DNA from: Fervidicoccaceae archaeon
GTDB taxonomy: Archaea > Thermoproteota > Thermoprotei_A > Sulfolobales > Fervidicoccaceae
Length of the DNA stretch: 64,000 bases
Reading direction: 5' to 3'
NCBI GenBank assembly: GCA_038878695.1
Contig: JAVZVD010000003.1
Coordinates: 124,001-188,000 of the forward strand
Positions 51,428-63,455 of this stretch are shown here, in pieces. The translations under genes were made by a program, and so were the position numbers. How positions within the stretch are numbered: position 1 is the first letter of the stretch; the number at the start of each line of letters is the position of its first letter. The notes beneath the pieces were generated by a model. The model searched no databases and was not told the DNA's origin. It worked only from the letters and a program-made list of their open reading frames with translations.

Positions 51428-51955
51428 TCATTGGTGAGCTCTCGACGTCGAGTTAGAGGTTGAGGGCTGAGGAGCTCCTCCCGCTCCTCGGGGGAGCTCA
51501 AGTCGCTTGAGCCCTCTCTTGATCTTCTTCTCGTAGTACTCGCGGAGCCTCTCTCGGATCTCCGGGTACTTCACGGCGAGAATCCTGACCGCCAATAGTG
51601 CAGCGTTCTCTGCCGCGTCGATCCCAACGCAGGCGACGGGAGTGCCCGGCGGCATCTGAGCTATAGAGAGCAGGGAATCCAAACCGCCCAGCTTGACGGA
51701 CCTAGGCACACCCACTACGGGTTTCAAAGTCCTCGCCGCTATGGCACCTGGCAGAGCCGCCGAGAGCCCAGCGACGCAGACGAAGACCTCGACCTCTGAC
51801 GATTCGACGTACTTCTCGAGCTCGTCGGGATCTCTGTGAGCGGATACGATAACGTACTCCGTCTCGATGCCTAGCTCCGCGAGGATCGAGCATATCTTGT
51901 CTCCTAATTCGCGGTCCGACTCGCTCCCCAAGACAACCGCTACTCGGGGAGGCAA
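51428..51955 (-). CDS. purE: Phosphoribosylaminoimidazole carboxylase PurE
   Basis: Carboxylation step making CAIR. The 175-residue product has GSESDRELGDK for phosphate binding, SAHRDPDEL with the catalytic His, and AGLSAALPG; the C-terminus has an extra basic tail. No purK is found in the window, so either PurE uses CO2 directly (class II-like) or N5-CAIR comes from elsewhere. TTG start. It shares an 81-bp divergent region with purM that contains ATTTAAAGAG, usable as a TATA box in either direction. Confidence 0.93.
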   Translation of the reverse strand: MPPRVAVVLGSESDRELGDKICSILAELGIETEYVIVSAHRDPDELEKYVESSEVEVFVCVAGLSAALPGAIAARTLKPVVGVPRSVKLGGLDSLLSIAQMPPGTPVACVGIDAAENAALLAVRILAVKYPEIRERLREYYEKKIKRGLKRLELPRGAGGAPQPSTSNSTSRAHQ

Positions 51956-52036
51956 GAATCACCCCCACCCGACGATGGGTCTGCGCGGCATTTAAAGAGC
52001 CCCTTTGAGTCGAGGAGCTCGCGAGGTACGCGAGGC
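51956..52036. promoter_or_regulatory. Divergent purE/purM promoter region
   Basis: The 81 bp between the two divergent pur genes contain GCATTTAAAGAGCCCC at about 51988-52003. TTTAAA is palindromic and lies about 35 bp from the purE start and about 40 bp from the purM start, suitable for a TATA box serving both genes. No operator repeat is obvious. Confidence 0.5.
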
Positions 52037-53203
52037 GTGGGTCTTTACGAGAGGCTAGGTGTAGACGCTCAGAAGAGGGGGGTCGAGGAGGCCTTCTCTC
52101 GTCTGTTGAGGAGCGCGGTGCCCGGAGCCTTCGCCAACATAATGAGGTGCCCCCAGCGCGGCGACGGTTTGGTCCTCCACGTGGACGGGGCCGGGAGCAA
52201 GCCCGTCATAGCTTATCTGTGCTATAAGGAGGAGGGGGGAGGCGAGTGCTTCGATGGATTAATGCAGGACGTCGTGGCGATGAACGTGGACGACGTAATC
52301 GCCGTGGGGGCGAGGCCTCTGCTCTTCGCCGACTACGTAGCGGTGAACACTCACAGAATCGATAAGCAGCTTCTCCTGAGGGCTCTCGCGCGGGGGCTCG
52401 ATAGAGCTCTCTCTCTCCTCTCCACTCACGGGGTGCCGCTGGAGCTAGCCGGCGGAGAGACGGCTGATCTTCCAGATCAATTGAGGACCCTCGATCTGGT
52501 GGGGGTGGTGCTCGGCGAGATCAACTTGGAGAGGGCGGTGAGAGGGAACGTGCGCGAGGGCGACGTGCTCGTGGGGCTTAGAAGCGGCGGCAGAGCGAAG
52601 TACGAGGAGAGAGAGAACAGCGGCATAATGTGCAACGGACTGACGCTGGCCCGACACGTTCTACTGAGCAAGAAGTACTCGGAGCGTTACCCGGAGACGA
52701 GAGAAGAGAAAGCGGCCGAGCTCACTTATCGCGGGAGGTACGAGCTCGACGACTATATCGATGAGCTCGGCTCGACGGTGGGAGAGGCGCTGCTCTCTCC
52801 AACGAGGATATTCGCGCCGATCATCGGTGAGGTCCTGGTCAGGGCCGCGGAGTCAGTGAGAGGGATAGTTCACGTGACGGGTGGGGGCCTCACCAAGCTC
52901 ACACGCCTAGGCAGAGGCGTGAGATACGTCGTGGACTCTCCTCCGAGGCCCGACCCCATCTTCGAGCTGATAAGGCGCGAGGGCCGGATAGACCTAAGGG
53001 AGATGTACGAGGTCTTCAATATGGGGATCGGCATTGTCGTCATAGCGGAGAAGGGGGCCGAGGAGGAGATCATAAGTGCGTCGGAGAAGTACGATGTCGA
53101 GGCCGCGGTGATAGGACGAGTCGTCGAGGGGGAGCCTGGAGTAAACGAGCTCGTCGTATACGCGGAGAGCTCGAGGCTGCACTATTCGAGGACCGTTGGC
53201 TGA
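52037..53203 (+). CDS. purM: Phosphoribosylformylglycinamidine cyclo-ligase (AIR synthetase)
   Basis: ATP-dependent ring closure from FGAM to AIR. The 388-residue product has the PurM-type phosphate region DVVAMNVDDVIAVGARPL, the LAGGETADLP motif and HVTGGGLTKL in the second domain. It is longer than the bacterial enzyme (about 345), with an insertion around residues 205-255. GTG start after GAGGCGTG. Its stop lies 163 bp before purC, so purC may have its own promoter. Confidence 0.93.
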   Translation: MGLYERLGVDAQKRGVEEAFSRLLRSAVPGAFANIMRCPQRGDGLVLHVDGAGSKPVIAYLCYKEEGGGECFDGLMQDVVAMNVDDVIAVGARPLLFADYVAVNTHRIDKQLLLRALARGLDRALSLLSTHGVPLELAGGETADLPDQLRTLDLVGVVLGEINLERAVRGNVREGDVLVGLRSGGRAKYEERENSGIMCNGLTLARHVLLSKKYSERYPETREEKAAELTYRGRYELDDYIDELGSTVGEALLSPTRIFAPIIGEVLVRAAESVRGIVHVTGGGLTKLTRLGRGVRYVVDSPPRPDPIFELIRREGRIDLREMYEVFNMGIGIVVIAEKGAEEEIISASEKYDVEAAVIGRVVEGEPGVNELVVYAESSRLHYSRTVG

Positions 53204-53366
53204 CCTCGGGGGATTTCGAGCCCGGGCAGCTCGCCAATTAACTTTTGGAGGGCGAAGTTTTCTCGACGCAGATCCTTTCTGAGGATCCCCTCGGATCTCC
53301 CGAAAAAGAGGCGCTCTAAGCTAAAAAGAGGTCTTAGCGAGAGCGCGAGCTCAGAGGCCCCCCCTC

Positions 53367-54326
53367 TTGCGGTTGTTCGACGCGATCACAGAGATCCTCC
53401 CCAATCCATTCGAGGAGGGCTCGGTCGTCGAGGCCGTCCGAGGCACTCTCGAGCTGGTTCGCGGGTCTAGGCTGAGGAGGGGGAAAGTTAAGGAGGTCTA
53501 CTCGCGCAACGGGGAGCTCCTCATATTCTTCACCGATAGAGTCTCGGCGTTCGATGTGGTCTTAGAAGATCTCGTGCCTCTGAAGGGGGCGTTCCTCGCC
53601 AAGCTCTCGGCTCTCTGGTTCGAGAAGTCTGCGAGCGTTTTCCCGAACCATTTCATCGAGCTCGTCGACGATAGAACTCTGTTGGTCAGCAGAGCTCAGA
53701 GAGTAGACATCGAGTGGATAGTCAGAGGCTACATCTACGGTTCTATGTGGAGAGCCTACGAGAAAGGGGAGAGGATTTTCTCCGGCGTGGAGCTGCCGTC
53801 GGGGCTGAGGCTCGCCGAGAAGCTGCCGGAGCCCGTGCTGACTCCCACTACGAAGAGTGACGTGGGTCACGACGTCGAGATAACGAAGGAGCAGGCTATA
53901 TCGCTCGGCCTCGTGAAGCGCGACGAGTGGGCCGAGCTCGAGGAGGCCAGCCTCAGGCTGTACGAGTTCTACTCTAAAGAGGCCGAGAAGAGAGGCATCA
54001 TAGTGGCGGACGTGAAACTGGAGTTCGGCAGGACGCGCGAGGGCATCATCCAAATAGACGAGCCGCCCACTCACGACTCGGCCAGGCTCTGGTCTGCCAA
54101 GCACTACGAGCCTGGCAGAAGGCAGGAGTCGTTTTGCCTCGACAAGGAGTTCTTAAGGGCATACCTGCAGAGGCGGGGCTATCGAGGAGAGGGCTCTCCG
54201 CCTCGCCTACCCGGAGAGATCGTCAGGCAGGTGGCTTTGCGAGCCCGAGGGGCCTATGAGGTGCTCGCGGGGAAGTCATCGATAGAGAGCCTGGGGCTGA
54301 GATCCCTGGAGGAGCTAGAGCTATGA
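53367..54326 (+). CDS. purC: SAICAR synthetase
   Basis: Couples CAIR and aspartate. The 319-residue product has RGKVKEVYS (lipid-kinase-like start of PurC), FFTDRVSAFDVVLEDLVP, EWIVRGYIYGSMW, and QIDEPPTHDSARLW, the PurC signature with D-E-P-P/x-T-x-D-S. A C-terminal extension of about 50 residues is present, as in eukaryote-like or archaeal forms. TTG start. Overlaps purF by ATGA and opens a tight eight-gene run ending at purQ. Confidence 0.95.
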   Translation: MRLFDAITEILPNPFEEGSVVEAVRGTLELVRGSRLRRGKVKEVYSRNGELLIFFTDRVSAFDVVLEDLVPLKGAFLAKLSALWFEKSASVFPNHFIELVDDRTLLVSRAQRVDIEWIVRGYIYGSMWRAYEKGERIFSGVELPSGLRLAEKLPEPVLTPTTKSDVGHDVEITKEQAISLGLVKRDEWAELEEASLRLYEFYSKEAEKRGIIVADVKLEFGRTREGIIQIDEPPTHDSARLWSAKHYEPGRRQESFCLDKEFLRAYLQRRGYRGEGSPPRLPGEIVRQVALRARGAYEVLAGKSSIESLGLRSLEELEL

Positions 54327-55825
54327 GGAAGCCAACCGAGAGCTGCGGCGTGGCTGGAGCAGCGAGCTCGATCGGGGAAGATGTTCTGCCTTACGTGTAT
54401 AGGATGCTCATCGTATTGAATCATCGCGGGCAGCAGTCCTACGGGATTTTGGCCTACGACGGCGGAGTCTTCAGAGGCCTGAAGAGAGCCGGCCTCGTAT
54501 CCGAGACGGATCTGGAAGAGTTAGTCGGCACGCGCGGCCTCTCGGGGAGCCTCGCGCTCGGTCACGTCAGGTATGCCACCTCCGGCGGAGACTCGCCCGA
54601 CGAACTCCTCCTCGGAGCCCAGCCCGTCTTGGTGGAGAGAAACGGACTGAGGCTAGCCTTAGCCTACAACGGCAATCTCGTAAACGCGCGAGAGCTCGCC
54701 GAGAAGCAGAGGTCGAGAGGCTCCGAGACCGGGCTCTTCGCGGATGCCGACGTCTTAGCTAGAGAGATCCTCGATGGGATAATCGAGACAGGCGACGTGG
54801 TCGAGGCTCTCGCGCTACTAGCTGAGAGAGTGGACGGGGCCTACTCTGTCGTGTGCGCGCTGAGCGATGGCTCGCTGCTAGCCTTCAGGGACCCTCGCGG
54901 CTTGAAGCCGCTCGCGGTGGGCTCCATCGATGAGAGGAGAATGTTCCTCGCGTCTTCGGAGAGCGCCGCTTTGGAGGATCTCGAGGTCTCCTCGTGGACC
55001 CACGTGGGCCCGGGCGAGCTAGTCTCATTCGATGGCGAGGAGACGAGTAGGCTCAGGTTCGCCCCCGGAGAGGAGAGGCTCTGCGCTTTCGAGTTCGCGT
55101 ACTTCGCGCGCCCCGACTCGAGACTCCTGCCGGGGTGCCGCTACGTTTACGAAATCAGGAGAGAGCTCGGGGCAATTCTGGCCGAGAGATTTCGAGAGGT
55201 AATGAACAGGATAGATATAATCGCGCCCGTCCCCGAGACGGCCGTCGACGCGGCTCTAGGGCTGGCCTCGGCCTCGGGCAAGCCCATCGAGCCGGTCATC
55301 GTGAGGCACAGGTACGTGAAGCAGAGGGCCTTCATACTCGATGAGGCGACCAGGAGGAGGATCCTAGAGATGAAGTACAACGTGCTCAGAGACAAGGTCG
55401 CCGGGGCCAGAATAGCGCTAATCGACGATAGCATAGTTCGCGGCGAGACCACGCGCTTGCTCGTGGAGCGCCTCAAGAGGGCTGGGGCTAGGGAGGTGCA
55501 CGTCTTCAGCACCTTCCCGAAGATCTCGCATCCCTGCTTCTACGGTATCGATATGGCTACATACGAGGAGCTGGCGGGCTTCGAGAGGGGACCCGAGGAA
55601 GTGGCCAGGCTGATCGGAGCCGATTCCGTTTGCTACCAAGAGCCTGAGGACTACGTCAGGGCCGTGGGCTCGAACTCCCTCTGTATGGCGTGCGTCACGG
55701 GCATTTACCCGACTCCTCGCGCTCAGAGGCTCGCCGACGAGGCCCGCGAAGAGGCCTCGAGGAGGATCGAGCTAACGAGCTCCAGAACTAGGAGGGTAAG
55801 GATTTTGGAGAGCCACGGAGCGTGA
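54323..55825 (+). CDS. purF: Amidophosphoribosyltransferase
   Basis: First committed purine step: PRPP plus glutamine to phosphoribosylamine. The 500-residue product has an N-terminal glutaminase whose nucleophile is Cys8 in ESCGVAGA, so a seven-residue propeptide is likely cleaved. NHRGQQSYG and YNGNLVNA follow. The PRTase domain has the PRPP loop ALIDDSIVRGETT. The C-terminal LCMACVTG may be an Fe-S or structural Cys pair, as in class-I PurF. It is followed after 6 bp by a second, altered copy. Confidence 0.95.
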   Translation: MRKPTESCGVAGAASSIGEDVLPYVYRMLIVLNHRGQQSYGILAYDGGVFRGLKRAGLVSETDLEELVGTRGLSGSLALGHVRYATSGGDSPDELLLGAQPVLVERNGLRLALAYNGNLVNARELAEKQRSRGSETGLFADADVLAREILDGIIETGDVVEALALLAERVDGAYSVVCALSDGSLLAFRDPRGLKPLAVGSIDERRMFLASSESAALEDLEVSSWTHVGPGELVSFDGEETSRLRFAPGEERLCAFEFAYFARPDSRLLPGCRYVYEIRRELGAILAERFREVMNRIDIIAPVPETAVDAALGLASASGKPIEPVIVRHRYVKQRAFILDEATRRRILEMKYNVLRDKVAGARIALIDDSIVRGETTRLLVERLKRAGAREVHVFSTFPKISHPCFYGIDMATYEELAGFERGPEEVARLIGADSVCYQEPEDYVRAVGSNSLCMACVTGIYPTPRAQRLADEAREEASRRIELTSSRTRRVRILESHGA

Positions 55826-55831
55826 GACTTC

Positions 55832-57130
55832 GTGCCCGGGATAATCGCCTTGTATCCCTTCGGCTTGGGTCGCGAGAACTGGAAGATCGCGAGATTCGTC
55901 TATTATGGCCTCATGGCTCTGCAGCATCGCGGGCAGGAGACCGCGAGCCTAGCTGTTCTAGGAAGAGGCGGAATGAGGGTGCTCGAGGCGACGGGCCCAG
56001 CCGAGGAGGCCTTCGAGCTCGATGACCTGGGCGGCCTAGATGGTTTCATTGCTCTCGGTAGAGTCTCGCCGCTCCCCCGAGACTCGCTGGCCTCGTCGAG
56101 CTCGCCTATCGAGCTCGTCGTGGCCGGAGACGGCTGTCCCGAGCTCGACGGCGAGAGAGACTGGAGAGCGTTCGCCGAGGTGCTGAGCGATGAGATGAGC
56201 AGAGTAGGGGACCCTCTCAGGGCCTCCGTCAACGTGATAGAGAGAGCGAGAGGGGGGTACTCCTTCGTGGCCATAACGGCGGAACAGATCATGTTGGCCG
56301 GCAGAGACCCGAGGGGGATCAAGCCCCTCGAGGTCGGCTCGCTCGGCTTCGATATAGGAGCCGTCGCGTCGGAGAGCTGCGCGCTGGACGTGCTCGGCAT
56401 GGAACACGCAGGCTCCGTGAAACCGGGCGAGGTGCTTAAACTCGACCCATACAGCATAGAGAGAGCGCGCGCGAGGCCTAGGGGGAGTGATCCGCCCTCT
56501 CTATGCAGCTTCGAGCTAGTTTACCTGGCTAGACACGACTCAGTGGTAGACGGCATCGACGTATACGCGGTGAGGGAGAAGATAGGCGCAAGGCTAGCGC
56601 GCGAGGCGCCGGCCGAGGCCGACGTCGTCATCGGCGTTCCCGAGACGGCGACGCCATTCGCGCTGGGCTACGCGAAGGCGTCGGGCACGCCGGCCAGCCT
56701 GGGCTTCGTGACGACAGGCAGGAGGCTGAGGACCGCCCTCAAGCCGTCTGCTCTCGAGAGGCTGATAGGGGTTCAACTCAAGCTGAACCCCATAAGATGC
56801 GCCGTGGAGGGACGAGACGTGGTGCTCATAGACGATAGCGTGGTCCGAGGCACTACGCTGAGGAATACGGTCTGGAACCTCAAGCGCAGAGGAGCCAGGA
56901 GAGTGCACGTGAGGATAGGCAGCCCGCCTCTCAGGAGCCCGTGCCCATACGACCCCGGATCGACCGAACCAGACGAGCTCATAGCGAGGTCGCTCTCGCC
57001 GAGCGAAATAGCGGAGGTCGTGGGTGCGGACAGCTTAGCATTCATATCCGAGGAGGGGCTGGCCGAGTCTGCGGGCCTCCCAACGCATCGCCTCTGTATG
57101 CTTTGTTGGCGCGCAGGTGAAGCGCGTTGA
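55832..57130 (+). CDS. PurF paralog without glutaminase nucleophile
   Basis: A second PurF-like protein of 432 residues. The N-terminus reads MPGIIALYPFG where active enzymes have M-C-G-I, so the nucleophilic Cys is Pro. QHRGQETASL is kept, but much of the glutamine pocket around residues 55-110 is shortened. The PRPP loop VLIDDSVVRGTTL and the C-terminal LCMLCWRAG remain. It may use ammonia directly or act as a partner or regulator of the active PurF beside it. GTG start 6 bp after purF; overlaps purD by TTGA. Confidence 0.85.
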   Translation: MPGIIALYPFGLGRENWKIARFVYYGLMALQHRGQETASLAVLGRGGMRVLEATGPAEEAFELDDLGGLDGFIALGRVSPLPRDSLASSSSPIELVVAGDGCPELDGERDWRAFAEVLSDEMSRVGDPLRASVNVIERARGGYSFVAITAEQIMLAGRDPRGIKPLEVGSLGFDIGAVASESCALDVLGMEHAGSVKPGEVLKLDPYSIERARARPRGSDPPSLCSFELVYLARHDSVVDGIDVYAVREKIGARLAREAPAEADVVIGVPETATPFALGYAKASGTPASLGFVTTGRRLRTALKPSALERLIGVQLKLNPIRCAVEGRDVVLIDDSVVRGTTLRNTVWNLKRRGARRVHVRIGSPPLRSPCPYDPGSTEPDELIARSLSPSEIAEVVGADSLAFISEEGLAESAGLPTHRLCMLCWRAGEAR

Positions 57131-58659
57131 AGGTCATGGGAGTGGGATCGGGAGCCAGGGAGCACGCGATAGCGGAAGCCCTGGCGAGAAGCGCGAGGGA
57201 GCCCAAGATATTCTGGGCAGGGGACCTTAGGAACCCCGGCATATTCAGGCTCGTCGAGAGGACCGGGGGTCGCTACGCGCTCGTCAACACGAACGACGCG
57301 AGAAGAGTAGCTGATCTCGCGGCCGAGTGGAGCGTCGATCTCGTAGTTGTGGGCCCAGAGGAGCCGAACTTCCACGGCATCCCGGACGAAGTCGAGAAAT
57401 TGGGGATTCCCTGCGTTGGAGCAAAGAGGAGACTCGCTGTTCTCGAGATGTCGAAGGCGGAGATGCGGAGGATTCAGTGGAGGCACGGCATACCGGGCAG
57501 GCTTCTCTTCAAAGTCTACAAGAGCTACGAGGAGGCCCTGGCCGATCTCTCGAGGAGAGCGGACGACCCGACGTGGCTTCAGAACGTCGCTCTGAAGCCG
57601 GCGAGGCAGGCCGGGGGCAGAGGGGTGAAGGTGATCGAGGACTCTCAGGTCTACTTGAGAGAAGAGAAGAGAGACTTCAAGAGGAGACATGTCGAGTGGC
57701 TAGAGAAGTACGTGGAGCTCTACGGGGACATCGAGGAGAAAATACTAGTCGAGGAGAAGGTCTGGGGGCCCGAGTACACGCTCCAGTGCGCGACGGACGG
57801 CAGGACCGTTCTCGGGATGCCGCTCGTCCAAGACAATAAACACGCTCACGACTTCGACATCGGGCCCGAGACTGGAGGTATGGGCTCCTACACGGGCCGA
57901 GGTATGCTGCTCCCCTTCATAACGATTGAGGAGTACGAGAGAAGCCTCGAGATCGTTAGGAGAATGGTCGAGGCGATCCAGAGGGAGACAGGCGAGCTCT
58001 ACAAGGGCTTCGTGGCAGGTCAGATGATGTTGACGGAGATCGAGGGGCCGACGTTAATAGAGATGTACTCGAGGCTGGGAGACCCCGAGGCCCTCAACGT
58101 GCTCGTCACTATGGAGACAGATTTTCTCGACCTCCTCGAGGCGATAGTGGACGGGAGGCTAGCTTCCCTAAAGCTCGAGTTCTCCGAGGAGGCCACGGTG
58201 GTCAAAGCTGTGGCGCCGAAGGGCTATCCCGACTTCAAGGAGATAGCGCGAGGCCACCCGATAGCAGTCAATGAAGAGGAGCTCAGAAGCAGAGGCTGTC
58301 GCGTGTACTGGGGCTCGGTTCACCTGTTCGACGATGGCTCGATGATGACCGGAGGCTCCAGGGCCGTAGAGCTTCTGGCCTCCGCTGCTACGCCGCAGGA
58401 GGCCTCCAGACTCCTCGACGAGTGCCTCGAAACGGGTGCGGTGAAGCTTCTCGACGGATGGGGCCTCTTCTATAGGAGAGACATAGGCTCTGAGGAGATG
58501 GTCGCGAGGAGAACGAGGTTGGCCGAGAGAGCGAGGGCTCTCTACAAGTACAGAGAAAAACGAGGGCTCTTGGGCAGGAGAGTGGATTGGATCCCCAAGG
58601 TAGGCAAAGTCGACCCGTCGATCGAGATGATGAAGGAGGCCCTCGCGGAGCGGGGGTGA
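57127..58659 (+). CDS. purD: Phosphoribosylamine-glycine ligase (GAR synthetase)
   Basis: ATP-grasp ligase forming GAR. The 510-residue product begins KVMGVGSGAREHAIAEAL, the typical PurD phosphate loop. VVGPEEPNF, VALKPARQAGGRGVKVI and IEMYSRLGDPEALNVL (metal and substrate region) follow. It is about 80 residues longer than bacterial PurD because of inserts near residues 180-205 and at the C-terminus. The TTG start overlaps the PurF paralog by TTGA. Confidence 0.93.
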   Translation: MKVMGVGSGAREHAIAEALARSAREPKIFWAGDLRNPGIFRLVERTGGRYALVNTNDARRVADLAAEWSVDLVVVGPEEPNFHGIPDEVEKLGIPCVGAKRRLAVLEMSKAEMRRIQWRHGIPGRLLFKVYKSYEEALADLSRRADDPTWLQNVALKPARQAGGRGVKVIEDSQVYLREEKRDFKRRHVEWLEKYVELYGDIEEKILVEEKVWGPEYTLQCATDGRTVLGMPLVQDNKHAHDFDIGPETGGMGSYTGRGMLLPFITIEEYERSLEIVRRMVEAIQRETGELYKGFVAGQMMLTEIEGPTLIEMYSRLGDPEALNVLVTMETDFLDLLEAIVDGRLASLKLEFSEEATVVKAVAPKGYPDFKEIARGHPIAVNEEELRSRGCRVYWGSVHLFDDGSMMTGGSRAVELLASAATPQEASRLLDECLETGAVKLLDGWGLFYRRDIGSEEMVARRTRLAERARALYKYREKRGLLGRRVDWIPKVGKVDPSIEMMKEALAERG

Positions 58660-58666
58660 GAAGATC

Positions 58667-60034
58667 GTGGACCCCTTGGAGAAGAGGCTCAGACTGCTCG
58701 AGGAGGCCGAGGCGTTCGGCCGAGAGCTCGAGGAGAGACTAGAGCCGCTCGAGGAACTGAGACCGACCGACCCGTTCGTTTTCATTTCTCTGGGCGGAGG
58801 AGAGCTGGGAGACCTCATGGTGACGGCGGCGAGGACCATCCTCGGAGGCGCCAGGGGAGGCGTACTCACCGTCACCATGGACAGGTACGAAGGCTTCCCC
58901 GCTCAGGACTCCTCGGACTACAGCGAGGTCCTAGACCTACTCAACGGGGCCGAGCTGAGGAGAGCCATAAAGAAGTACGTGCCGAGGCCTCGCGAAAGAA
59001 AGCACGCGATATGCCTCGAGATAGAGAGGATCGATACCGCTACCGTGGCCAGAATGGGGATAGAGGAGGGTTACAACATCGTCTCTACCCCCTACGCTCC
59101 TCTCGTTGGCATGGACCGAGTGGCCACGAAGCTCTTAATGGAGAAATTGAAGATACCAATGGTCGAGTGGAGATACGCGAGTAACGAAGAGGAGCTGAGA
59201 AGAGCCGCGAAGGAACTAGGTCTCCCGGTCATCGTGAAGCCTGTTATGACTTCCAGCGGACACGGGACCACGATAGTCAAGACGAGCGCGGACCTGGAGA
59301 GAGCCTACGAGTACGCCCTGAGACACGCGAGAGGGCGAGGAGACGAGGTGGTGGTGGAAGAGTACCTCGAAGAGCTCAAAACCGAGGGGCTCGAGGTAAC
59401 CCAGCTCGTGCTGAGGCACTTCGACGAGAAGGGGAGCGTGGTTAGCAGCGAGCTGCCGCCCGTAGAGCATCAGAGGCCAGGCGCCACGTATCACGAGAGC
59501 TGGCTCCCCCCCACTCTACAGAGCTCCGTTCGCGAGAGCTGCAGGCAGTTCGCTAAGAAGATAGCAGACTTCTTCGGGGGCCTCGGAATATATGCCGTGG
59601 AGCAGTTCGCGATAAGAGGTCGGGTATACAACAGCGAGTTCGCCAATAGACCTCACGACACGGGGATGGTGACGAAGTGGGCAATGTCGAGAGACGAAGG
59701 CGCGCTTCACCTGTTGGCGTCGATGGGCCTCCCGATAGGAAGCGCGGACCTCTCGCTCTCTCTGCCCCGAGGCTTCGCCGTAGCTCACGTGGTGCTGGCC
59801 CCTCAAGCAGTTAGAGAAGGGGCTCGCGTGCTCTCGTGGAGACCCTCAGCCGTTAAGGCCTTCGCGATGAGCCGGGGATACTCGGCCGACCTATGGTACT
59901 TCGGTAAGCCCACCGCCTACCCGGGCAGGAGGATGGGACTCGCGGTGGCCTTCCACGAGGATCTCGCCGAGGCTAGACGCATCGCTGAGGAGGTTGCGCA
60001 CTTCGCCGAGAGGGCCGTCATCTACGAGGGGTAG
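58667..60034 (+). CDS. purT: Formate-dependent GAR transformylase
   Basis: ATP-grasp enzyme that forms FGAR from GAR, ATP and formate, replacing folate-dependent PurN. PurT-like motifs are KPVMTSSGHGTTIVK, AVEQFAIRGRVYNSEFANRPHDTGMVT (shown in part as EFANRPHDTG) and YPGRRMGLAVA. Related archaeal PurP was considered, but the K-P-V-M-x-S-S-G-x-G and R-P-H-D-T-G motifs favour PurT. The N-terminal 130 residues diverge from the bacterial enzyme. GTG start 7 bp after purD. Confidence 0.8.
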   Translation: MDPLEKRLRLLEEAEAFGRELEERLEPLEELRPTDPFVFISLGGGELGDLMVTAARTILGGARGGVLTVTMDRYEGFPAQDSSDYSEVLDLLNGAELRRAIKKYVPRPRERKHAICLEIERIDTATVARMGIEEGYNIVSTPYAPLVGMDRVATKLLMEKLKIPMVEWRYASNEEELRRAAKELGLPVIVKPVMTSSGHGTTIVKTSADLERAYEYALRHARGRGDEVVVEEYLEELKTEGLEVTQLVLRHFDEKGSVVSSELPPVEHQRPGATYHESWLPPTLQSSVRESCRQFAKKIADFFGGLGIYAVEQFAIRGRVYNSEFANRPHDTGMVTKWAMSRDEGALHLLASMGLPIGSADLSLSLPRGFAVAHVVLAPQAVREGARVLSWRPSAVKAFAMSRGYSADLWYFGKPTAYPGRRMGLAVAFHEDLAEARRIAEEVAHFAERAVIYEG

Positions 60035-60037
60035 TCT

Positions 60038-60295
60038 GTGCCGCGCTACAGAGCTAGAGTCGAGGTTTGGCTCAAGAGGGACCTCGTCGACGCGGAGGGC
60101 AGGACTGTGATCGAGGCGCTCAGGAGCCTTGGCTATAAGGTCTCCGACGCCAGGGTTGGAAAAGTCTACTCAATAGAGGTCGAGGCCGAGAGCGAGGAAG
60201 GGGCGTTGAAGGTCCTCGACGAGATGTGTAGGAGGCTCTTGGCGAATCCCGTCAAGGACACGTACTCGGTAGTTCTGGAGGAGCGGAGGGAGTGA
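60038..60295 (+). CDS. purS: FGAM synthetase subunit PurS
   Basis: Small subunit that docks PurL to PurQ. The 85-residue product has the PurS fold pattern: RARVEVWLKRDLVDAEGRTV, EALRSLGYKVSDARVGK and YSIEVEAESEEGAL (each a strand-helix unit). Length is normal. GTG start 3 bp after purT; its stop overlaps the purL start as GTGA. Confidence 0.92.
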   Translation: MPRYRARVEVWLKRDLVDAEGRTVIEALRSLGYKVSDARVGKVYSIEVEAESEEGALKVLDEMCRRLLANPVKDTYSVVLEERRE

Positions 60296-62667
60296 GGAGC
60301 GCTCGCAGCTCCCGATTGGTCGAGACGATAAAGCTCGTCGGAGCCTCTGACGAGAGGCTCCGAGAGATAAACGAGAAGCTGGGCTTGAAGCTCTCGCTCG
60401 ACGAGCTGCGCGCCGTGAGTAGGTACTTCGCGGAGCGCGGCAGGGACCCAACGGACGTTGAGCTGCACACTCTGGCCCAGACGTGGTCGGAGCACTGCAG
60501 ACACAAGACCTTCCGGGGAGTGATCGTCGACGAGAGCGGGAGAGTAGTCGCCGAGGATATGCTCAAGAGCTACATAGCGAGAGCCACGGAGGAAATAGGA
60601 GCCCCTTGGGTCCTCTCGTTTCTCAAGGACAATGCGGGGATAATAGAATTCGTCGACGGCTACGCCCTCGCCGTCAAGGTCGAGACGCACAATCACCCGT
60701 CGGCGGTTGACCCATTCGGTGGAGCTGCTACCGGGGTTGGTGGAGTCATAAGAGACGTCTTGGCCGTGTGGGCTAAGCCCGTGGCGCTAATCGACGTATT
60801 GTGCTTCGGTCCTCTCGACTACCCACACGAGAGGCTCCCTCTCGGCGTCAAGCACCCCAGGTATCTCTTCCGAGGCGTAGTCTCGGGGATAGGATACTAC
60901 GGCAACAACGTGGGCATCCCAACGGTCGCCGGAGCAGTCTACTTCGATGAGGGCTACGTTGGGAACGTGGTCGTTTACGCTGGCTGCGTAGGCGTGTTGC
61001 CGAAGAACGCTTACAAGTGGGCCGCGAAAGCCGGAGAATACCTCTTGCTCCTCGGCAATAGGACGGGAAGGGACGGCATAGGAGGCGCGACCTTCGCTTC
61101 GGACGAGCTCAGCAATGAGGCCGAGGCCCACAGGTCGGCGGTCCAGATACCGGATCCCATAGAAGAAGAGAAGCTCAAGAGGGCCATCCTCAGGATACGA
61201 GATGAGGGCCTCGGCACCGGCATCACGGATTTAGGAGGAGGAGGTCTGGCCGTAGCCGTTGCAGAAGTAGCCGGTAGAGCGGGGACTGGGGCCGAGGTGG
61301 AGCTCGGGGAGGTTCATCTGCGCGAGCCCCTCGCACCGTGGGAGATCTGGGTCTCAGAGTCGCAAGAGAGGATGCTCCTGACCGTTCCTCGAGAAAATGT
61401 CGAGAGAGTGCTGGACATCGTCGAGGAGGAAGAGCTCGAGGCCTCGGTGATCGGTCGTCTCACGAGCGGGCGGTCGCTGCGCGTCTACTATTACGGAGAG
61501 ACCGTAGCCGACTTGGACGTAGAGTTCCTTCTCAATCCCCCGAGAGCGGTGAGGGTCGCGTCGTGGAGGCCCCCGAGCCTCGAGGAGCCCGAGCTGCCCG
61601 AGCCGAGCGACCTGAGCTCGGAGCTTCTCCGGCTCCTAGCGTCTCCGAACGTGGCCAGCAGAGAAGAGATCATCAGAACGTACGATCACGAGGTTCAGGG
61701 CAACACGCTGCTCAAGCCGTTAGACGGCGAGCTTGGCGGTCCCAACGATGCCGTGGTACTAAAGCCGCTCGACGACAGCTGGGCTGGCGTCGTGATCTCG
61801 GTCGGGCTCAAGCCCTCCTACTCCAAAATAGACCCCTATTGGATGGCGGCTTCAAGCATCGAGGAGGCTTTGAGGAATAACGTAGCGGTGGGAGGCAGGA
61901 GGATAGCGATCCTCGACAACTTCGTTTGGGGTAATCCGGAGAAGCCGGATAGGATGGGGGCGCTCCTGAGAGCCGTGGAGGCTTGCTATCACTTCGCCAA
62001 GACTTTTGGGACTCCCTTCATCTCGGGCAAGGACAGCCTCTACAACGAGTCGCCGCTCGGTCCGGTACTCCCCACGCTCTTGATAACCGCGATCGGCGTG
62101 ATCCCGGACGCCAAGAAGACCGTCTCGGTCTCATTGAAGAGGGCCGGCGATCCCATCTACGTATTGGGCCTCACGAGGAGAGAGCTCGGCGGATCAGAGT
62201 ACTACAGGCTTCGAGGCATAGTCGGAGCCTCGGTTCCAAAGGTGTACCCGGACGAGTCGAGGAAAACTATGAGAGCTCTGACGAGGGCCATAGACCTCGG
62301 GCACGTCCTAGCGGCCCACGATATATCGGAGGGAGGTCTGGGGGTAGCGATCGCAGAGATGACCTTAGCGCGAGGTCTCGGCGTGGTGCTGGAGCTCAGC
62401 TCTCTCCCGCGCGTTGGGGTCGACCGCGACGATCACGCTCTCTTCTCCGAGAGCAACGGCAGATTCTTGGTCGAGGTCGAGAGGAGCCGAGCGCGCGAGT
62501 TCGAGGAGCTGATGTCGAGCATGGGTTGCGCGTTCGCCAAAATCGGTGAGGTGAGAGGCGACGGGAGGCTCGTGGTCTACGGATTGAGGCGCCCGGACGA
62601 GGTGGTCGTCGACTTGGGAGTGAGCGAGCTCAGAGAAGCGTGGAGAAGAGGTCTGATGGTCCGTTGA
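60292..62667 (+). CDS. purL: FGAM synthetase catalytic subunit PurL
   Basis: ATP-dependent amidation of FGAR. The 791-residue small-type PurL has TWSEHCRHKTF with the catalytic His, VETHNHPSAVDPFGGAATGVGG and the second-half DSWAGVVI and ISGKDSLYNE motifs. AAHDISEGGLGVAIAEM completes the second PurM-like half. It is slightly longer than typical small PurL (about 720-750). It overlaps purS (GTGA) and purQ (TTGA). Confidence 0.96.
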   Translation: MRSARSSRLVETIKLVGASDERLREINEKLGLKLSLDELRAVSRYFAERGRDPTDVELHTLAQTWSEHCRHKTFRGVIVDESGRVVAEDMLKSYIARATEEIGAPWVLSFLKDNAGIIEFVDGYALAVKVETHNHPSAVDPFGGAATGVGGVIRDVLAVWAKPVALIDVLCFGPLDYPHERLPLGVKHPRYLFRGVVSGIGYYGNNVGIPTVAGAVYFDEGYVGNVVVYAGCVGVLPKNAYKWAAKAGEYLLLLGNRTGRDGIGGATFASDELSNEAEAHRSAVQIPDPIEEEKLKRAILRIRDEGLGTGITDLGGGGLAVAVAEVAGRAGTGAEVELGEVHLREPLAPWEIWVSESQERMLLTVPRENVERVLDIVEEEELEASVIGRLTSGRSLRVYYYGETVADLDVEFLLNPPRAVRVASWRPPSLEEPELPEPSDLSSELLRLLASPNVASREEIIRTYDHEVQGNTLLKPLDGELGGPNDAVVLKPLDDSWAGVVISVGLKPSYSKIDPYWMAASSIEEALRNNVAVGGRRIAILDNFVWGNPEKPDRMGALLRAVEACYHFAKTFGTPFISGKDSLYNESPLGPVLPTLLITAIGVIPDAKKTVSVSLKRAGDPIYVLGLTRRELGGSEYYRLRGIVGASVPKVYPDESRKTMRALTRAIDLGHVLAAHDISEGGLGVAIAEMTLARGLGVVLELSSLPRVGVDRDDHALFSESNGRFLVEVERSRAREFEELMSSMGCAFAKIGEVRGDGRLVVYGLRRPDEVVVDLGVSELREAWRRGLMVR

Positions 62668-63455
62668 GCGTTAAAATACTAGTGCTGAGAGCTCCGGGAA
62701 CGAACTGCGATGAGGAAACGGCGAGGGCGGTTAGAGACGTAGGCCTAGAGGCCGAGGTGGTTCACGTAAGCTTGTTAATTCGCGGAAGAAAGAGGCTCGA
62801 GGACTACGCTGGCTTGATCATACCCGGAGGCTTCTCTTATGGCGATAGAGTGAGAGCCGGAGCGATATTGGGCAAGCTTCTCGAAGCGCACCTGGGAGAC
62901 GAGCTCAGGGACTACGTGAGCTCGGGAGCCCCAGTGCTCGGGATATGTAATGGGTTCCAGGCTCTCGTCGAAGCCGGGCTCTTGCCCGACTCCGGGCGAT
63001 TCGGCGGGGTCTCGATGGCTCTGGCCCCCAACGTCACGGCCAGGTTCGAAGCCAGATGGGTTAGGCTCATAGTAGAGAGACCGGAGCTCTGCGCTTTCAC
63101 CAGGCTCGTGCCGGAGGGAGCTCTGCTGCGAATGCCTGTGGCTCACGCCGAGGGGAGATTCATTGCGCCGCCAGAGGCTCTACGCGATCTAGTCTCTCGC
63201 CCCAGGACCCTCCTTAGGTACGCGAAGCCCGACGGCAGCCCGGCGGCGGGCGAGTACCCATACAACCCGAATGGGTCGATGATGGACTTAGCCGGTTTGT
63301 GCAACGAACGCGGCAACGTTATGGGGCTCATGCCGCATCCGGAGAGAGCCCTCTACTCGTGGCAGCTGCCCGAGGGCCCCCGCAACGACTCGCGGTCGGA
63401 CGGGCGGCTCATTTTCGCGTCGATGGCCGATTACGTGCTTGAGCGGCTCAGGTGA
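62664..63455 (+). CDS. purQ: FGAM synthetase glutaminase subunit PurQ
   Basis: Supplies ammonia from glutamine to PurL. The class-I glutaminase has LRAPGTNCDEETARAV at the start, the nucleophile Cys in VLGICNGFQALVEAGLLP, and the His-x-Glu of the triad in MPHPERALY. TTG 62664 overlaps the purL stop as TTGA and gives 263 residues; a GTG at 62640 is less likely. Last gene of the purC-purQ run. Confidence 0.95.
   Translation: MSVKILVLRAPGTNCDEETARAVRDVGLEAEVVHVSLLIRGRKRLEDYAGLIIPGGFSYGDRVRAGAILGKLLEAHLGDELRDYVSSGAPVLGICNGFQALVEAGLLPDSGRFGGVSMALAPNVTARFEARWVRLIVERPELCAFTRLVPEGALLRMPVAHAEGRFIAPPEALRDLVSRPRTLLRYAKPDGSPAAGEYPYNPNGSMMDLAGLCNERGNVMGLMPHPERALYSWQLPEGPRNDSRSDGRLIFASMADYVLERLR

Follow-up and report, generated by a model that had tools for sequence, protein, structure and literature searches.

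We analyzed a stretch of 64,000 nucleotides from a Fervidicoccaceae archaeon (referred to as the window here), in which the purine biosynthesis (pur) genes include, directly 3′ of purF, a second PurF-like gene without the catalytic cysteine. This gene is called purF′ here, and the GAR synthetase gene that follows it is called purD′. The genes and features of the locus, in window positions, are the following:

51428-51955, minus strand: purE, on the strand opposite to the rest of the pur genes
52037-53203, plus strand: purM
53367-54326, plus strand: purC
54323-55825, plus strand: purF, with a CGV motif behind a 7-residue N-terminal extension and intact glutaminase motifs
55823-55825, plus strand: TGA stop of purF, in frame with purF′ and two codons 5′ of its start
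55832-57130, plus strand: purF′, the PurF paralog without the catalytic Cys (432 amino acids; GTG start; stop TGA at 57128-57130)
55832-55837, plus strand: GTG start followed by the Pro codon where PurF has Cys1
56504-56506, plus strand: Cys225 of PurF′, the first of four Fe-S type cysteines
56819-56857, plus strand: PRPP motif VVLIDDSVVRGTT of PurF′, residues 330 to 342
56942-56944, 57095-57097, and 57104-57106, plus strand: the other three Fe-S type cysteines of PurF′ (C371, C422, and C425)
57127-58659, plus strand: purD′, GAR synthetase of the PurF′-linked type (TTG start; TIGR00877 score of 301.6 bits, cutoff 288)
57868-57870, plus strand: Glu248 of PurD′, which replaces the Asn of GPNTGGMG
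58066-58068, plus strand: Tyr314 of PurD′, which replaces the Asn of ExNxRxGDPE
58546-58611, plus strand: C-terminal extension of PurD′ of about 22 residues (approximately 474 to 495), nearly absent in other PurDs
58667-60034, plus strand: purT-like gene
60038-60295, plus strand: purS
60292-62667, plus strand: purL
62640-63455, plus strand: purQ

The operon has the order purC-purF-purF′-purD-purT-purS-purL-purQ; purM precedes it, and purE is encoded on the opposite strand. Several of these genes score below their curated family cutoffs. Only GAC TTC separates the TGA of purF from the GTG of purF′, which lies in the same frame, and the stop of purF′ overlaps the TTG start of purD′ by 4 nucleotides. 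The initial annotation had described a tandem PurF paralog with proline in place of Cys1, in agreement with the N terminus M-P-G-I-I-A-L. It had also pointed to an in-frame upstream start as a way of restoring the cysteine; no such start is possible, given that the in-frame TGA of purF precedes the GTG by two codons. The window operon (51428-63455) looks horizontally acquired: its purL is 64 to 70% identical to genes from other families (G246, G212, G140, G284, and G062) and 38% identical to that of G052 from the same family, and PurF′ shows 61 to 63% identity to genes from other families versus 35% within its own.

The predicted structure of the window PurF′ (AF2 pLDDT of 92.6) is PurF-like, and its best PDB match by Foldseek is B. 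subtilis PurF. The model has the full-length fold of B. subtilis PurF (1ao0/1gph) and E. coli PurF (1ecb), with a Foldseek TM of 0.84 to 1ao0, and PurF structures rank first in VIA-align (Z of 43.6, rmsd of 2.6 over 410). It shares with them the PRTase site and four cysteines (as in B. subtilis) but differs in the glutaminase residues. Among the traits of TIGR01134-type proteins, the fold and the PRPP motif and PRTase residues are present, while the N-terminal Cys is absent and the glutamine/oxyanion set is incomplete. The TIGR01134 score of 264.5 bits lies under the NCBIfam cutoff of 350, which is a weak criterion, since the adjoining PurF also stays under it (325.3 bits). Beta-lactam and carbapenam synthetase structures were also among the fold matches. 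Beta-lactam synthetase, carbapenam synthetase, and carbamoyl-phosphate synthetase I retain a glutaminase fold or domain without the nucleophile; unlike PurF′, these dead-glutaminase enzymes have other acceptor domains and are not PRPP enzymes.

A Cys-less PurF is already on record. In the accessible part of their paper, Brown et al. 2011 (Biol Direct 6:63, PMC3261824) distinguish two PurF clusters in Crenarchaeota, name the Cys-less one PurF′, and propose that it is possibly ammonia dependent, stating that E. coli PurF can still use ammonia when Cys1 is missing and that duplicated genes such as purF have no established biochemical or regulatory explanation. The window gene lacks the N-terminal Cys, falls into the separate cluster, and has purF and other pur genes as neighbors; it is PurF′, a known paralog without characterized function, in a version with Pro1, whereas the same part of that paper mentions Ala or Val in place of the Cys. 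That part notes neither a tie between PurF′ and PurD nor a PurD variant, and the lineage range is wider here. No later work on PurF′ was found in our literature search, which had most subscription papers outside its reach, and the main text of the S. islandicus essential-genome paper (PMC6249222) contains no mention of purine, purF, amidophosphoribosyltransferase, or PRPP.

We aligned 47 PurF′ sequences with a partner set of 47 Cys-type PurFs, one of which (L083) belongs to a genome that is 77% complete and in which PurF′ was not seen, and with 38 solitary PurFs, i.e., PurFs from genomes in which PurF′ was not seen. Positions refer to E. coli PurF, in which R73, N101, G102, and D127 are glutamine-binding and oxyanion residues. 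Cys1 is absent in 47/47 PurF′ proteins and present in 47/47 partner and 38/38 solitary PurFs, which were recognized partly by that cysteine. Its loss in PurF′ is not due to chance. The residues found in its place are mostly small (Ala in 21 sequences, Ser in 7, Thr in 6, Pro in 5, Gly in 3, Met in 2, and Val, Ile, and Leu in 1 each). Over seven glutaminase positions, PurF′ proteins keep 61/329 alignment cells versus 329/329 in partner and 266/266 in solitary PurFs, and none of the 47 keeps the glutaminase site: C1, R73, and Y74 are retained in no sequence, T76 in 1, N101 in 2, D127 in 17, and G102 in 41. In the window PurF′, GHVRYAT has become GRVSPLP and NGNL has become DGCP, with Ser at R73 and Asp at N101; Gly102 and the Asp aligned with D127 are retained. 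The initial annotation had reasoned correctly from Cys1 that the glutaminase must be dead; it had missed the further motif changes.

The PRTase half is strictly conserved. At ten PRTase positions, PurF′ retains 470/470 cells, partner PurFs 455/470, and solitary PurFs 330/380, counting Asp/Glu or Ser/Thr as kept at three of the ten, and R332 and K349 are conserved in 47/47 PurF′ proteins. As annotated at first, the PRPP loop of the window protein is intact. F334, a channel residue in E. coli PurF, is replaced by Ala, Met, or Gly in 47/47 PurF′ proteins, and the flexible loop NRYVGRTFI has mostly become TGxxxR[TS][AM]. The C-terminal Cys pair noted earlier is present but forms part of a set of four Fe-S type cysteines that align with those of B. 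subtilis PurF (C225 in 45/47; C371, C422, and C425 in 47/47). The strict PRTase conservation rules out a decaying or recent pseudogene, in keeping with the earlier view of an intact gene maintained in the operon. PurF′ has thus retained a working-looking PRPP half and lost the glutaminase half.

In the PurF-family tree, the 47 PurF′ rows form one side of one branch (SH-aLRT of 100), and PurF′ is apparently an old PurF paralog of single origin. (The tree, the grouping tests, and the divergence ratios omit the Cys-type PurFs of L088 and L091; the PurF′ grouping tests also omit L087.) One scan of genome contigs yielded five relatives, four of them of the close PurF′ kind. A candidate PurF′ in a bacterium (L037) was rejected as an ordinary Cys-type PurF. 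For the distribution, 300 genomes of the window's own phylum were searched with a PurF′ profile (E of 1e-20). Among the matches listed, 199 genomes have a PurF-family match and 96 of these, about half, have PurF′, not all of them aligned. A first reading gave 95 genomes, 82 assigned by score and another 13, all from family f17, by paired hits (two of the f17 PurF′ proteins were aligned, and the other 11 are best matched by the window PurF′ in gene context); the 96th, G046, has a PurF′ cut by the contig end. G011 has two PurF-family hits and no PurF′ by score. Genomes with a single hit among the matches listed were taken to have the Cys-type PurF only, from the alignment for the 38 solitary PurFs and from the hit table for the others. 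Among the 96 PurF′ genomes, the matches listed contain no uncut case of PurF′ without PurF: the PurF match is missing in G246, whose contig begins inside the 3′ end of PurF, and in G228, whose PurF′ runs into the contig end. Another PurF-like protein, a weak match of about 460 amino acids, is present in both f46 genomes searched (G227:C14:37818-38885 and G283:C1:572626-573669; 119 and 104 bits).

A phylogeny of the PurF pairs, suggested as a check in the initial annotation, points to partner swapping. While PurF′ is one clade, its PurF partners belong to several deep PurF lineages, some of which adjoin solitary PurFs in the tree; by loop type, the partners in classified genomes comprise 35 with the canonical loop, 10 with a 13-residue loop, and 1 with a 16-residue loop. 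The two trees conflict, with one grouping rejected for PurF (AU p of 1.7e-54) and another for PurF′ (p of 0.0066); the PurF-rejected grouping, slightly enlarged, is not rejected on PurF′ (p of 0.126). A model of an in-frame PurF:PurF′ fusion, built from a seven-row alignment, reached a pTM of 0.52 and gave no confident arrangement.

The sequence RGETT in the PRPP loop of the window PurF had prompted the idea of an activity split, with PurF acting only as glutaminase and PurF′ only as PRTase. This is refuted by genomes that have only PurF and use the same PurF subtype. Asp is found at that place of the PRPP loop (RGDT) in 17/38 solitary PurFs, and G062 (99% complete), where PurF′ was not seen, has the flexible loop of the window PurF with one difference. 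The ratio of PRTase to glutaminase divergence, computed over nonindependent row pairs, is 0.74 in partner PurFs, 0.71 in solitary PurFs, and 0.58 in PurF′. The PRTase half of partner PurFs is kept and shows no relaxation, and the Cys-type PurF can therefore presumably make phosphoribosylamine (PRA) alone. In family f5, which we take to be Sulfolobaceae, the flexible loop of the nine Cys-type PurFs (L061-L069) has lost R328/Y329, and 8/9 carry Asn at 373. They differ in this from the 38 solitary PurFs, and their PRTase half is possibly altered. Solitary PurFs with a 16-residue loop (L092, L094-L096, L101-L103, L105-L107, L120, L124-L126, and L128-L130) have His or Asn at R261 and mostly no Lys at the position aligned with K349, and they appear to serve alone.

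The window PurD was likewise compared with the 300 phylum genomes (E of 1e-15). Among the matches listed, PurD was found in 197 genomes, 97 with the window type (mostly at least 340 bits, with a few fragments lower) and 100 with another type (at most 234 bits). The window type, PurD′, occurs in 96/96 PurF′ genomes among the matches listed, with presence read from hits that were not all aligned, and neither PurF′ nor window-type PurD is listed for any of the 100 genomes with the other type. The 97th genome with window-type PurD (G093) is represented by a fragment at the beginning of a contig and is uninformative; G216, G217, and G011 gave no PurD hit and were left untyped. In a PurD tree that left out hits under about 300 amino acids, the 64 aligned PurD′ rows form one side of a branch with an SH-aLRT of 100, apart from 42 ordinary-type rows from 35 genomes (seven genomes are represented twice). 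As far as our searches of the literature show, this coupling of PurF′ and PurD′ has not been described before.

On an EF-2 tree of 60 rows, the PurF′ state needs 11 changes (10 without G046); when seven doubtful rows are removed (odd paralogs, fragments, and G046), 9 changes are needed, or 7 among rows with typed PurD. In independent pairs on both EF-2 trees, PurF′ and PurD type are concordant in 6/6 cases (p of 0.031), six being the minimum number of pairs able to reach significance, here on a single-gene tree. Scoring G046 as lacking PurF′ gives one extra pair, which shows no difference, and the same pair test found no association for the PurF loop type (4 pairs). We also typed the operon genes found on the fetched pieces by how closely they resemble their window counterparts. 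Similarity of purD separates the groups with and without PurF′ fully (58 versus 18 rows), and the types of purF (AUC of 0.45), purC (0.20), and purL (0.26) do not separate them; purE (0.8), purT (1.0), purM (0.04), purS (0.09), and purQ (0.12) have 2 to 3 rows on one side and are little informative. Across 39 loci, the distance correlation of PurF′ with PurD′ is 0.78, and 0.64 given PurF; that of PurF′ with PurF is 0.60, and 0.14 given PurD′; and that of PurF with PurD′ is 0.68, and still 0.43 given PurF′.

Of 67 purF′ loci, 50 have purD as a direct codirectional neighbor (downstream in 43, upstream in 7), and 6 have it no more than 1 kb upstream, separated from purF′ by purQ. In 47 loci, purF′ directly follows a purF of the same strand. 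Where purF′ has no codirectional purF neighbor, purD is beside purF′ in 16/20 loci, the other four being L080, with a divergent purD about 3 kb off, L070 and L072, with purF′, purF, and purD all apart, and L049, on a short contig. In the 13 f17 genomes, purD lies at most 1 kb from purF′; their purF falls outside the fetched piece in 11 and is on the opposite strand in 2. G137 and G095 have purF′, purF, and purD′ at three separate places. In four loci with a separated purF (L071, L073, L076, and L081), purD is not beside purF. Among the 47 loci with purF adjoining purF′, 7 have no purD beside purF′, of which five have it a few genes on and two are cut pieces. Given that purD also lies directly downstream of 20/38 solitary purF genes, nearness of purine steps 1 and 2 is common in itself. 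One piece of G062 (L131, G062:C1:795000-805500) has the order purP-purC-purF-purS-purL-purQ with a window-like PurF and lacks purF′, purD, and purT between purF and purS.

PurD′ positions are numbered after A. aeolicus PurD (2YW2), with roles of charged residues taken from the accessible part of PMC8880213. The ATP, Mg, and glycine residues (E100, K103, K143, E185, E192, D212, R287, and E292) are kept in 64/64 PurD′ sequences, so that the handling of these ligands looks normal, and the window PurD′ scores as a GAR synthetase with TIGR00877. The differences from 2YW2 lie elsewhere: Glu replaces N224 and Tyr replaces N285 in 64/64, and R215 has become His in 51, Asn in 12, and Tyr in 1. All three positions are invariant across the 42 other PurD rows (from 35 genomes) and both aligned PurD structures. 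In addition, K214 is Pro in 27/64 and Ala in 1/64, and PurD′ has a 9-residue insert besides its C-terminal extension. According to the same part of PMC8880213, the binding mode of PRA in PurD is not clarified; we infer that the changes at N224, N285, and R215 lie on the amine side.

The reading that we favor, and to which we give about an even chance, is that PurF′ is a PRPP-using partner that forms PRA or delivers it to the adjacent PurD′. PurF′ would bind PRPP in its own PRTase site, make PRA from free ammonia or take over PRA formed by PurF, and pass this very labile compound straight to PurD′, whose amine-side pocket would have been rebuilt around unchanged ATP and glycine sites. This would involve physical contact between PurF′ and PurD′. 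The pairing evidence points to PurD rather than PurF as the partner of PurF′, because PurD′ is present in 96/96 PurF′ genomes among the matches listed, purD is kept beside purF′ in 16/20 loci without adjoining purF, and the PurF partners come from several lineages. A bolder version, which we consider a long shot, is that PurD′ makes or presents activated glycine or glycinamide and that PurF′ joins it to PRPP, giving GAR directly or within a PurF′-PurD′ complex and avoiding free PRA; a putatively rebuilt amine site of PurD′ and the altered acceptor side of PurF′ (F334 to Ala or Met) next to an intact PRPP site might fit such a route. If true, it would suit hot-living archaea, where PRA would decay very fast.

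The initial annotation had offered an ammonia-using enzyme, a heteromer partner of PurF, or a sensor; all of these keep some probability, while the pairing evidence favors PurD over PurF. A stand-alone ammonia-dependent PRPP aminotransferase, as in the proposal of Brown et al. 2011, would serve as an alternative to the glutamine-fed enzyme, PurF, and would not be specially tied to PurD. The intact PRTase positions, the ammonia use of Cys1-less E. coli PurF, and the replaced F334 all fit it, yet PurF is not seen to be replaced in any uncut PurF′ genome among the matches listed, and the link of 96/96 with an altered PurD is left unexplained, which makes this reading possible, if rather doubtful. 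A role of PurF′ as a regulatory or scaffold subunit within a PurF heteromer, sensing PRPP or nucleotides, seems unlikely to us. PRPP-synthetase-associated proteins play a comparable role for PRPP synthetase, purF stands directly upstream of purF′ in 47/67 loci, and the matches listed show PurF′ without PurF in no uncut genome; however, the partners span several deep lineages with conflicting trees, the distance correlation with PurF drops to 0.14 given PurD′, and R332 and K349 are kept beyond what sensing would seem to need.

The main alternative to a functional coupling, and its chief caveat, is hitchhiking: given the linkage of purF′ and purD, their shared transfer could yield co-inheritance without joint function, and PurF′ would act elsewhere in purine synthesis. 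Their adjacency in 50/67 loci and the apparent acquisition of the window operon as a block, seen in purL and PurF′, are what this explanation would predict. It sits poorly, however, with the failure of purF, purC, and purL types to track PurF′, with G062, which has a window-like PurF and a 64% identical purL and yet no PurF′ seen and the other PurD, and with the 13 f17 genomes in which purD stays near purF′ without purF. We hold it to be improbable on these grounds, and we return to a PRPP-using partner of PurD′ as the preferred reading.

Named in 2011, PurF′ is still without an established function, though it is present in 96 of the 199 PurF-family genomes sampled, among the matches listed. 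Its link to a PurD with replacements at otherwise invariant residues makes its role approachable by two-protein experiments. If PurF′ handles PRA together with PurD′, this would show how these archaea protect a very unstable intermediate from loss, and it may reveal altered chemistry where purine synthesis begins.
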